58,288 bases of DNA, taken from contig CANDGI010000018.1 in NCBI GenBank assembly GCA_947384285.1, positions 1-58,288 of the forward strand. Reading direction: 5' to 3'. Within the stretch, counting starts at the first letter, position 1, and each line of letters starts with the position of its first letter. The DNA is from an uncultured Lachnospiraceae bacterium. Lineage in GTDB: Bacteria; Bacillota; Clostridia; Lachnospirales; Lachnospiraceae. The notes beneath the pieces are model-generated. The model saw only the letters and a program-made list of their open reading frames with translations, was not told the origin of the DNA and did no database searches. This document shows positions 9,156-11,792 of this stretch, in pieces. A program made the position numbers and the translations under genes.

Positions 9156-9950
9156 TCAAGAACCCCTTGTGAATTCAATAACATCCTGTTGGAATCTCTT
9201 TAAAATATTCTGATTCTGCAATTTAGGATTAATCCTGGCTTCAATGGCAATATTTTCAAAAAATGTGCACCAAAGTTTTTGATATTCCAATTCCTCCGGG
9301 GAAAACCGGCCTAACATCTCCTGGTTCAGATCCTGTGTATCTGTAAGAAAAAATCCTTTTCCCTTTGGATGTAATGCAGCCTGGTTATGGGATGCGTCAT
9401 AAATCATAAAATTTTCCTCTGGGAGACGGTCAGAGAAATGTTCTCCAAGGAAGGGAAGCACCTGGTTTTTCGGATGAATCCTTGCAAACAGCAGGCCGTT
9501 TTCCAGTTCCTGGAACCGGAGAAACCCCAGCAGGTGGTGCGCTTCGTTTCCAGCCTTTCTGGAAAGATGGAAGACCCGGTTTACATAAGGCTCTCCCAGA
9601 TAATTCAGGACTTTGCTGCCATCTTTTAAAGCCAGGGCCAGGACAATGGTGTGGTAAATGGCATCGGCCTTGTCCATGGCTTTTTTCCTGCCATGGTTTT
9701 CCTCCAGGGCACAGGCTGCCTGGCAGATTTCCGTATAGGTTTCTTCCCCAAGGCGCGCCCTAAGTGTGCGGGCTACTTTTTCACTTTTTTCATAGTCTGT
9801 TTCCACGGTAATATATTCGCTGAATAAGGTGTAATTATCCGGCGGACAGGTGGTAAGGGAGATATTTGCATGCCCGTATCTGCTGGCCCAGGCATCGTAT
9901 ATGCCGGTGAAAATACTGTCGATGTTATCTTCGCAGAGAAATATATACAT
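9156..9950 (-). CDS. DUF4130-type putative DNA metabolism protein (partner of radical SAM protein)
   Basis: 264-aa protein that I recognise as the TIGR03915 type (probable DNA metabolism protein, DUF4130), almost always next to a radical SAM protein. ATG 9950 gives the family start MYIFLCEDNIDSIFTGIYDAW; the frame extends to 9998 but into the inverted repeat. Family features visible: YTEICQAAC, DAIYHTIVLAL, HLSRKAGNEAHHLLGFLRF, HPKNQVLPFLGEHFSDR, YQKLWCTFFENIAIEARINPKLQ. Family members are often fused to or beside uracil-DNA glycosylase-like domains; no glycosylase domain is present here. Biochemical function is unproven. It lies 114 bp downstream of the radical SAM gene. Confidence 0.85.
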   Translation of the reverse strand: MYIFLCEDNIDSIFTGIYDAWASRYGHANISLTTCPPDNYTLFSEYITVETDYEKSEKVARTLRARLGEETYTEICQAACALEENHGRKKAMDKADAIYHTIVLALALKDGSKVLNYLGEPYVNRVFHLSRKAGNEAHHLLGFLRFQELENGLLFARIHPKNQVLPFLGEHFSDRLPEENFMIYDASHNQAALHPKGKGFFLTDTQDLNQEMLGRFSPEELEYQKLWCTFFENIAIEARINPKLQNQNILKRFQQDVIEFTRGS

Positions 9951-9995
9951 AAGGGGGTCCTTTCCTTGTCTTACTTTGTATGGCAGCGGATGTTT

Positions 9996-10056
9996 CAAAT
10001 ATTGAGGTACGGACGGAAAGGGAGGACGGCCCTTTCCGTCCGTACCTCAATATTTG
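9996..10056. repeat. 27-bp perfect inverted repeat with 7-base loop
   Basis: 9996-10022 and 10030-10056 are perfect reverse complements (arms contain ATTGAGGTACGGACGGAAAG), separated by AGGACGG. No T-run follows on either side. It sits between the two genes of the putative repair pair. Confidence 0.92.
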
Positions 10057-10064
10057 GCGGGTTC

Positions 10065-11417
10065 TTAGATGGAGGATACTCGCTGGCCTGGAGGGAGAAT
10101 CTGGGTGTCGGTTAATTGGAAATCAGAGCGCATCTCTTTGTCGAAAAAGCTGAGCTGTTGATATCCTCCTTCCCGGATATCCCGGGGAATCTGGGTTTTG
10201 TCCCGCATAAGGTTTTCACAGATGTAGTTTTCTTCCAGTTTGGTATTGTACATCATTTTGCCGGAACAGGTGATGAAATATAGGGCGCGTTTTAAGACTA
10301 CGCCGATTTTTTTTAAGTCCTCAAAGGTGAGCCGGTTTCTTTTGCGTGCTTTTACAATCCGTTCTGCAGATTTGTAGCCAATGCCAGGCACCCGCAGCAA
10401 TGTCTGATAGGATGCCTGGTTGATTTCTACAGGAAAGAATTCCAGATGGCGCAATGCCCAATCACATTTTGGATCTAAAAAAATATTAAAGTCCGGGCGG
10501 TCTTCCGACAGAAGTTCTGAAACATGGAAGTGATAATAGCGCAGCAGCCAGTCCGCCTGATAAAGCCGGTGTTCCCGCAAAAGAGGAGGGCCGCCGGGGA
10601 GGGCGGGCAGGTTGGAGTTGCCGTTTACATTCACAAATGCAGAGTAAAACACGCGCTTTAGCTGGAATTTTTGATAAAGGTTTTCAGCAACGCTCATAAT
10701 TTGGAAATCATTTTCCGGGGTGGCTCCGATAATCATCTGGGTAGACTGCCCGGCAGGGACAAACCGGGGTGTTTCCCGGTAGACCATCAATTCCTGCTTA
10801 TTATCTGTGATGCGGTTCTGAATCTGGCGCATGGGCCTTAGAATGGTAGACCGGGACTTGCAGGGGGCAAGCTGCCGCAGGCTGTCTGCAGTAGGAAGTT
10901 CCAGGTTAATGCTCATGCGGTCTGCCAGGAATCCGGTCTTTTCCAACAGCACCGGGTCAGCGCCAGGGATTGATTTCACATGGATATAGCCGTTAAAATG
11001 GTGAACCTGCCGAAGCTTCCAAAGGGTTTGATAGATAAGATCCATGGTATAGCTGGGGCTTATCATAATGCCGGAGCTTAGGAATAACCCTTCGATATAA
11101 TTGCGCCGGTAAAATTCCATGGTAAGGGTGCAGATTTCATCCGGGGTAAATGCGGCCCGCTTTACCTGGGAGGCACAATTGTTCAGGCAATAGGCGCAGT
11201 TAAAGATGCATTCGTTGGTCAATAATATTTTCAAAAGCGAAATACATCTTCCATCAGCCGAAAAGCTATGGCAGACGCCAGGGGCAATAGAATTCCCCAT
11301 ACCCCTGCCAGTTCCCTTCCGGTCAACACCGCTGGAGGTGCAGGCCACGTCATACTTTGCAGCATCAGATAAAATTGTCAGTTTTTCCAGTAAATCCATG
11401 TTCTTCTGCAGATTCAT
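10065..11417 (-). CDS. radical SAM protein, putative DNA modification/repair
   Basis: 450-aa radical SAM enzyme of the type annotated TIGR03916 (rSAM linked to UDG). The cluster-binding motif is CIFNCAYC (Cx3Cx2C), followed by a further NNCAS Cys. The C-terminal part has a helix-hairpin-helix DNA-binding motif, LLRVPGIGYKSAERIVKARK. Start ATG 11417 with AGAGGGAT upstream. It would use a 4Fe-4S cluster and SAM to make a radical; its substrate is assumed to be DNA because of the HhH motif and the partner gene. A LexA-like box overlies the promoter, which fits an SOS-induced repair role. Confidence 0.88.
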   Translation of the reverse strand: MNLQKNMDLLEKLTILSDAAKYDVACTSSGVDRKGTGRGMGNSIAPGVCHSFSADGRCISLLKILLTNECIFNCAYCLNNCASQVKRAAFTPDEICTLTMEFYRRNYIEGLFLSSGIMISPSYTMDLIYQTLWKLRQVHHFNGYIHVKSIPGADPVLLEKTGFLADRMSINLELPTADSLRQLAPCKSRSTILRPMRQIQNRITDNKQELMVYRETPRFVPAGQSTQMIIGATPENDFQIMSVAENLYQKFQLKRVFYSAFVNVNGNSNLPALPGGPPLLREHRLYQADWLLRYYHFHVSELLSEDRPDFNIFLDPKCDWALRHLEFFPVEINQASYQTLLRVPGIGYKSAERIVKARKRNRLTFEDLKKIGVVLKRALYFITCSGKMMYNTKLEENYICENLMRDKTQIPRDIREGGYQQLSFFDKEMRSDFQLTDTQILPPGQRVSSI

Positions 11418-11458
11418 AACAGTTATCCCTCTCCTTGCAAATATACCTGAAACAAACG

Positions 11459-11472
11459 CGAACTAACGTTCT
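11459..11472. promoter_or_regulatory. LexA (DinR) box upstream of the radical SAM gene
   Basis: CGAACTAACGTTCT holds the core GAAC-N4-GTTC of the Gram-positive SOS box. It lies about 6 bases downstream of the predicted -10 on the minus strand, over the expected start of transcription. Confidence 0.7.
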
Positions 11473-11478
11473 AAAAAC

Positions 11479-11507
11479 AGAATAACACAATAAAAGTGAA
11501 AATGCAA
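11479..11507 (-). promoter_or_regulatory. promoter of the radical SAM / DUF4130 operon
   Basis: On the minus strand TTGCAT (11507-11502), 17-base spacer, TATTCT (11484-11479), directly followed by the LexA-like box. Confidence 0.6.
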
Positions 11508-11555
11508 GAGAAAAAAGAACATTTGTTTGAAAAATCATTCTCACAAAAACCTTAC

Positions 11556-11792
11556 TTATTCCCAGCTAAGATATGCTTGACAAATATCCCCAGAAACAGT
11601 TTTCCGGATAGACTCATACGCGCTCTGGGCAGCCTTTGCCATGATTGCCTGGTCTTCCTGGGAAAGATCCTGAAAAAAGCCGTCGTTTACAATCAGGGAA
11701 ATAAGATGCGGCAGATGATTGGCTTCCACCACGTAATCCTGCTGCGTGTAGAGCTTGTTTGAGTCAATGGCTTCGCAGGGATTTCCCCCTTC
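11556..11792 (-). pseudogene. remnant of a TRAP substrate-binding protein (DctP), C-terminal part
   Basis: Directly after the dctM stop the minus strand reads 78 codons without a stop and without an early start codon. The translation contains EAIDSNKLYTQQDYVVEANH, then HLISLIVNDGFFQDLSQEDQ and AIMAKAAQSAYESIRK, which matches the C-terminal third of DctP proteins. The first two thirds, including signal peptide, are missing. A complete DctP gene is not found in the window. This is a 5' truncation, probably by a deletion that joined dctM to the end of dctP. The surviving part is intact, so the event may be recent. Confidence 0.8.

Follow-up and report, generated by a model that had tools for sequence, protein, structure and literature searches.

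Predicted LexA operators and a clamp-type tail in a radical SAM/DUF4130 gene pair of a Lachnospiraceae bacterium and its relatives

The radical SAM and DUF4130 genes found in a 58,288 bp stretch of DNA from an uncultured Lachnospiraceae bacterium (the whole stretch being called the window in the following) very probably constitute an SOS operon under LexA control. The operators at the promoter, their conservation before orthologous genes, the pairing of the two genes, and the tail of the radical SAM protein can all be read from the sequences, and the positions within the window are given in Table 1. An initial annotation of the same DNA had proposed SOS control of the pair and had regarded it as direct support for a role in DNA repair. 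The first proposal is strengthened by the boxes before orthologs, compared to a low background in the same loci, and by the own LexA motifs of alphaproteobacteria and Caballeronia at the corresponding genes. Concerning the second, a repair role gains in likelihood from SOS control without being proven by it.

Table 1. Features of the radical SAM/DUF4130 operon and its promoter (positions within the window).
Feature	Position	Strand	Remarks
Box 2, LexA-type	11517-11528	-	AAACAAATGTTC; 9 nt upstream of -35
-35 hexamer TTGCAT	11502-11507	-	weak, 3/6 of consensus
-10 hexamer TATTCT	11479-11484	-	weak, 4/6 of consensus; preceded by TGT
LexA box 1	11459-11472	-	CGAACTAACGTTCT; minus-strand reading AGAACGTTAGTTCG; 6 nt after -10
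Probable ribosome-binding site	11428-11436	-	AAGGAGAGG; read from the sequence
Radical SAM protein, 450 aa	10065-11417	-	TIGR03916 rSAM_link_UDG, 677.5 bits (cut-off 343.5)
CX3CX2C Fe-S motif, C70 C74 C77	11187-11210	-	invariant in two ortholog alignments
Helix-hairpin-helix, residues 330-369	10311-10430	-	PF12836, 35.1 bits (cut-off 27)
QLSFF, residues 421-425, clamp-binding-motif-like	10143-10157	-	QLSLF in most relatives; from alignments
DUF4130/TIGR03915 protein	9156-9998	-	TIGR03915, 213.3 bits (cut-off 112.25); PF13566, 158.1 bits (cut-off 27)

The radical SAM protein scores above the cut-off of TIGR03916 and possesses the CX3CX2C motif, and its partner exceeds the cut-offs of both TIGR03915 and the DUF4130 profile. 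The family name of TIGR03916 itself labels the role in DNA modification or repair as putative; COG4277 is presumably the same radical SAM family. The helix-hairpin-helix, which the initial annotation had ascribed to the radical SAM protein, is recovered by PF12836 above its cut-off. As judged from relatives, the DUF4130 gene likely starts at 9950 (MYIFLCED). The next gene beyond it, ksgA/rsmA, runs in the opposite orientation, such that the operon consists of the radical SAM and DUF4130 genes only. The closest named relatives of the locus are Lachnospiraceae. No SPL family appears among the NCBIfam matches of the radical SAM protein up to an E-value of 0.001 or among the Pfam matches up to 0.1, a comparison made with sequence profiles only. 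A MoaA-like function was rejected, as the weak MoaA matches cover only a segment of around 45 residues around the Fe-S motif. Solved structures, searched by sequence, gave 19 matches to the radical SAM protein up to an E-value of 1, the best of which correspond to the helix-hairpin-helix or the Fe-S segments (ComEA-related, E 0.0004), and a single match to DUF4130, namely a ribosomal protein (E 0.09). The interval from the radical SAM promoter to the TRAP permease genes contains, at 11559-11792 on the minus strand, a C-terminal fragment of the TRAP substrate-binding protein DctP (36.1 bits, covering 184-242 of the 286 profile positions), which is devoid of the N-terminal part.

On the minus strand, box 2 is followed by the -35 hexamer, a spacer of 17 nt, the -10 hexamer, 6 nt, box 1, and, after a further 41 nt, the ATG at 11417, with a distance of 57 nt between the two boxes. 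Box 1, which the initial annotation had recognized, fits the Gram-positive SOS box core GAAC-N4-GTTC and is the sole match to it in the window, whereas box 2 had been missed. The earlier description of a box over the promoter holds insofar as box 1 closely follows TTGCAT-N17-TATTCT, but the hexamers themselves are not covered: box 1 sits just downstream of -10, across the expected transcription start. With one box on either side of TTGCAT-N17-TATTCT, the LexA-type operators are placed such that they could block the promoter. The TGT ahead of TATTCT is read by us as an extended -10. A promoter scan of the window found five other promoters (4.7 expected) and did not include TTGCAT-N17-TATTCT. 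The bare motif GAAC-N4-GTTC is ordinary, and the position of box 1 is what counts: 0.61 matches are expected in the window from shuffles, 44 of 100 shuffles contain at least one, and genome-wide GAACN4GTTY is found at 71 forward and 71 reverse sites, i.e., fewer than the 96 and 109 of the reversed-pattern control, such that the bare motif count was rejected as evidence.

In three close relatives (L123, L124, and L125), -35, -10, and box 1 hold the same relative positions. The counterpart of -35 is TTGCAT in L123 and L124 and TTGTAA in L125, and the sequences aligned to TATTCT are TATGAT, TATGAT, and TAGTAT. The half-sites of box 1 (AGAAC and GTTC) are invariant, while the middle four bases vary across the window and these relatives (GTTA, GCAC, ACCT, and ATTT). 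Box 2 is matched in L123, differs at a single base in L125, and has no match in L124.

The same type of box also occurs at known SOS genes of the source genome, the assembly of which (3.23 Mb, 83 percent complete) contains lexA (237 bits). Its recA is preceded by the box CGAACATTAGTTCG, situated, in our reading, around 5 bases after a plausible -10 and thus in the same layout as box 1; the lexA promoter carries CGAACATTTGTTTA, CGAACGTGTTTTCC, and CGAACAAATTTTCG, each with one mismatch to the core, and uvrB is truncated by a contig end. In a survey of part of the genome (contigs to C30), 15 other perfect GAAC-N4-GTTC sites are among the matches listed. Thirteen of these lie within open frames of at least 80 residues, one of them also 63 nt before a frame of 500 residues, and two are found neither within nor shortly before such a frame.

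The initial annotation had named the lack of a box in orthologous loci as evidence against SOS control, and orthologs were accordingly searched, between -250 and +20 relative to the start, for GAACN4GTTY or RAACN4GTTC in three samples, which share species to some degree and the counts of which are uncorrected for kinship. Within the order, 61 of 146 genomes possess the gene above the cut-off, and 60 loci were read, G091 being left out as broken by contig ends. In genomes with LexA above the cut-off, 38 of 51 orthologs are preceded by a box and 13 are without one by this definition; 200 dinucleotide shuffles yield a mean of 0.73 and a maximum of 4, and the reversed motif 0. In genomes without LexA above the cut-off, the box is found in three of nine. 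Two of these three boxed loci are those of G128 and G134, in which lexA may be absent from the assemblies only, because relatives of the same family have LexA. Family f16 includes five genomes without LexA above the cut-off (two of them with weak matches only) and a box-like site in one of the four loci read. Taken together with G007 and G015, its loci show a box in 1/6 (Fisher p 0.01 vs 38/51), this group of six LexA-less genomes having been formed after the data were seen, out of the full group with 3/9.

The second sample comprises named loci, by title mostly Lachnospiraceae and Oscillospiraceae, and also Paenibacillus, Desulfosporosinus, and Pseudobacteroides. Among the best 80 of at least 588 related loci, the box is present in 61, including L177, L181, and L190, and absent by the same definition from 19, the reversed motif giving 0. 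A script assigned the start codons and, for these three loci and L042, gave frames of only 2-8 residues, such that box positions in these four are unreliable. As background in the same 80 loci, only 3 of 284 other frames of at least 150 residues are preceded by a box. At least two boxes are found in 28 loci, the two nearest to the gene being separated by 24-35 nt (12 loci) or by 49-64 nt (16 loci). The window, with its promoter between the boxes, belongs to the latter class, and the two classes may reflect the place of each box relative to the promoter.

In the phylum sample, 55 of 249 genomes have the gene above the cut-off; 55 loci were read, the window's own being left out and G186, just below the cut-off, being added. 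A box is found in 38 of them (reversed motif 0), and 17 have none by the set definition. lexA is above its cut-off in 55/55, compared to 224 of 249 overall, and the chance of encountering no LexA-less genome among 55 is 0.0013, uncorrected for kinship. In G190 and G300, only the C-terminal part of LexA was matched, and neither has a box. Furthermore, the radical SAM protein has six second-copy relatives (L086-L091; 36-41 percent identical), five of them in family f4 and one in f16, whose genes lack an adjacent DUF4130 gene. Since four of these six paralogs are also boxed (reversed control 1/6), the box is not confined to the pair.

To cover other lineages, 20 loci were read from 158 plasmid-collection records with the radical SAM protein. 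All 14 alphaproteobacterial loci contain GAAC-N7-GAAC (in one case as GTTC-N7-GTTC) 17-43 nt upstream of the start, and all three Caballeronia loci contain CTGT-N8-ACAG at -20 to -29, with the own-lineage motif in none of the 369 background tiles of these 17 loci. We take the former to be the LexA motif of alphaproteobacteria and the latter that of Caballeronia's group. That the operon carries the LexA motif proper to each lineage argues more strongly for selected LexA control than the conservation of a single motif would. The loci of Acetoanaerobium, Phocaeicola, and Gemmatirosa were kept outside this count: Acetoanaerobium possesses AAACATATGTTC at -95, and none of the motifs tried was found in Phocaeicola and Gemmatirosa, the start of the latter being unsure. 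The alternatives for box 1, a fortuitous match within an A+T-rich promoter or a binding site for some other regulator, might be suggested by the missing genome-wide enrichment of the bare motif and by the weak promoter, but are very improbable given that the box is conserved in three samples, that the motif is swapped in other lineages, and that the half-sites stay while the spacer varies; the ortholog and background counts led us to reject a chance match. A phage origin was considered and set aside: the ten records labelled as phage that contain the radical SAM gene are eight unannotated faecal contigs, which are perhaps bacterial, and two records labelled Acinetobacter phage (around 240 kb).

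LexA control of related genes has been reported before. For CAC3343-CAC3344 of Clostridium acetobutylicum, it was predicted independently in 2013 on the basis of footprinting and expression (PMC3828012), and the box described here thus supports a known prediction. It does so in another species, and the available text of that paper is without DUF4130, the second-box layout, other phyla, and the tail. A UDG-COG4277 operon is a predicted LexA target in Bacteroidetes, with Verrucomicrobia and Alphaproteobacteria cited (PMC8565304, 2021, as far as its available text goes). Like the pair in the window, it is a putative base-excision-repair operon of two genes under predicted LexA control, whereas the partner is UDG there and DUF4130 without UDG here. 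DUF4130 has been predicted to be an enzyme related to mutagenesis, with links to UDGs and to SplB-like radical SAM proteins (PMC3765255, 2013). Domain and link correspond to those described here, again in an SOS context; the evidence there comes from gene neighbourhoods, with no operator analysis in the accessible part of that publication. Furthermore, the radical SAM gene vnz_31145 of Streptomyces venezuelae is a LexA target according to ChIP-seq and responds to mitomycin C by induction; in the portion of the paper available it is described as similar to thymine cross-link repair enzymes (PMC9380542). The main text of a Caulobacter paper (PMC12700426) mentions no glycosylase, radical SAM, UDG, or uracil, and 'radical' was not found in a C. 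difficile paper (PMC4689574). As SOS control of the family had already been predicted, the window constitutes a well-supported new member. As far as the literature was searched, the additions over prior work are the breadth and the motif-swap test, the layout with two operators, and the clamp-type tail.

Concerning this tail, the helix-hairpin-helix is followed in the alignments by a variable linker and then by a conserved QLSLF-like segment. The pattern Q[LIMV][SDTAN][LMFIW][FLIWYD] within the last 60 residues is found in 73 of 77 named proteins (drawn from the best 80 of at least 588 related loci), 43/55 of the phylum, 38/58 of the order, and 8/9 proteobacterial proteins, as compared with 1.64, 0.81, 0.88, and 0.07, respectively, in shuffled tails, and with 0, 1, 0, and 0 for the reversed pattern; L042, L092, L177, L181, and L190 are left out of these counts. 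The strict form QL[S/D]LF occurs in 39/77, 13/55, 16/58, and 3/9, respectively. Many of the listed proteins in which the pattern is missed keep QLxL (QLTL, QLELW, QLCLF), as do many of the 20 such proteins of the order. In all 17 proteobacterial proteins, QLxL[FLI] is situated at the extreme C-terminus, in one of them with a single residue after it. Clamp-binding pentapeptides have the consensus QL[S/D]LF, and PolC of Bacillus subtilis ends in QLSLF (PMC12309361, in its accessible part). With QLSFF, the window thus possesses a peptide of this type in a flexible or terminal segment, and docking of the radical SAM enzyme to the replication clamp is likely. Binding of the tail to DUF4130 or another partner instead of the clamp would accord with its absence from all six paralogs without adjacent DUF4130 and with the rapid divergence that the motif shows in some families, as in the variants listed above; it is rather unlikely, however, considering the agreement with the clamp-binder consensus and with the last five residues of PolC, and the position of the tail behind a variable linker or at the very end of the proteobacterial proteins. 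No report of a QLSLF-type tail in a radical SAM family was found in the literature search, nor was radical SAM among the listed matches on the sliding clamp or its binding motif, such that the conserved tail appears to be new as far as searched.

The radical SAM gene is followed by a DUF4130 gene in the same orientation in 57/60 loci of the order, 78 of the best 80 of at least 588 named loci, and 46/55 loci in the phylum sample, where misses can reflect divergence. In proteobacteria, DUF4130 forms the N-terminal half of a partner protein annotated as UdgX: DUF4130 and a UDG domain were found in six of six partners tested and TIGR03914 in two of two, with the motif GEQPG in 7/7, exact KRRIH in 2/7, and HPS[SA] in 0/7. 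UdgX is described as a cross-linking uracil-DNA glycosylase that binds covalently to abasic sites (PMC10359453; also PMC10776899, each in the text available); its family domain is fused behind DUF4130 in proteobacteria and absent from the window operon. The accessible text of PMC10359453 does not mention operon, SOS, DUF, or radical, and no literature joining UdgX and radical SAM was found. The structure model of DUF4130 (9159-9950, minus strand) is of high confidence and resembles, weakly and by predicted fold, DHH-superfamily structures such as RecJ and Cdc45. In hhalign, DUF4130 against RecJ of the order reached a probability of 0.7 percent, and no DHH motif was found among the conserved DUF4130 positions, whereas RecJ has invariant D141, H142, and H143. 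The idea that DUF4130 is an active DHH nuclease was rejected, the fold being suggestive but the sequence standing against it; neither the catalytic motif nor the profile similarity of DHH phosphoesterases (RecJ, NrnA) is present.

From the operators we infer that LexA, bound upstream of -35 and right after -10, would keep the operon off, and that RecA on single-stranded DNA would trigger self-cleavage of LexA, by which the operon would be expressed. The radical SAM enzyme may then grip DNA via its helix-hairpin-helix and, as we infer from the motif, be docked on the replication clamp by its QLSLF-type tail. The lesion and the chemistry are a guess: the 5'-deoxyadenosyl radical might act on a damaged base, and DUF4130 might work with the radical SAM enzyme on the same lesion. 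To our knowledge, few radical SAM enzymes repair DNA, an example being spore photoproduct lyase. We regard base repair as the somewhat probable function of the pair.

It is quite possible that LexA control is real and the pair nevertheless serves a purpose other than base repair, e.g., tolerance, work on RNA or the nucleotide pool, or the resolution of UdgX-like protein-DNA adducts. SOS regulons include non-repair genes too, and such a purpose would be consistent with the proteobacterial fusion of DUF4130 to a domain of the type that binds abasic sites covalently, as well as with its weakly RecJ/Cdc45-like fold. The helix-hairpin-helix, the clamp-type tail, and the fusion to a UDG-family domain, on the other hand, all point to DNA. 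Going further, the pair might, as a tentative proposal, represent an SOS-induced, clamp-docked radical SAM repair module with at least three types of LexA operator, in which DUF4130, having a RecJ/Cdc45-like fold without DHH catalysis, would hold single-stranded or nicked DNA during the radical chemistry.

With a predicted SOS switch at the promoter, the own switches of its relatives, and a tail resembling a clamp plug, the function of this putative enzyme becomes testable: the result tells experimenters when to seek a phenotype and what to reconstitute the enzyme with.
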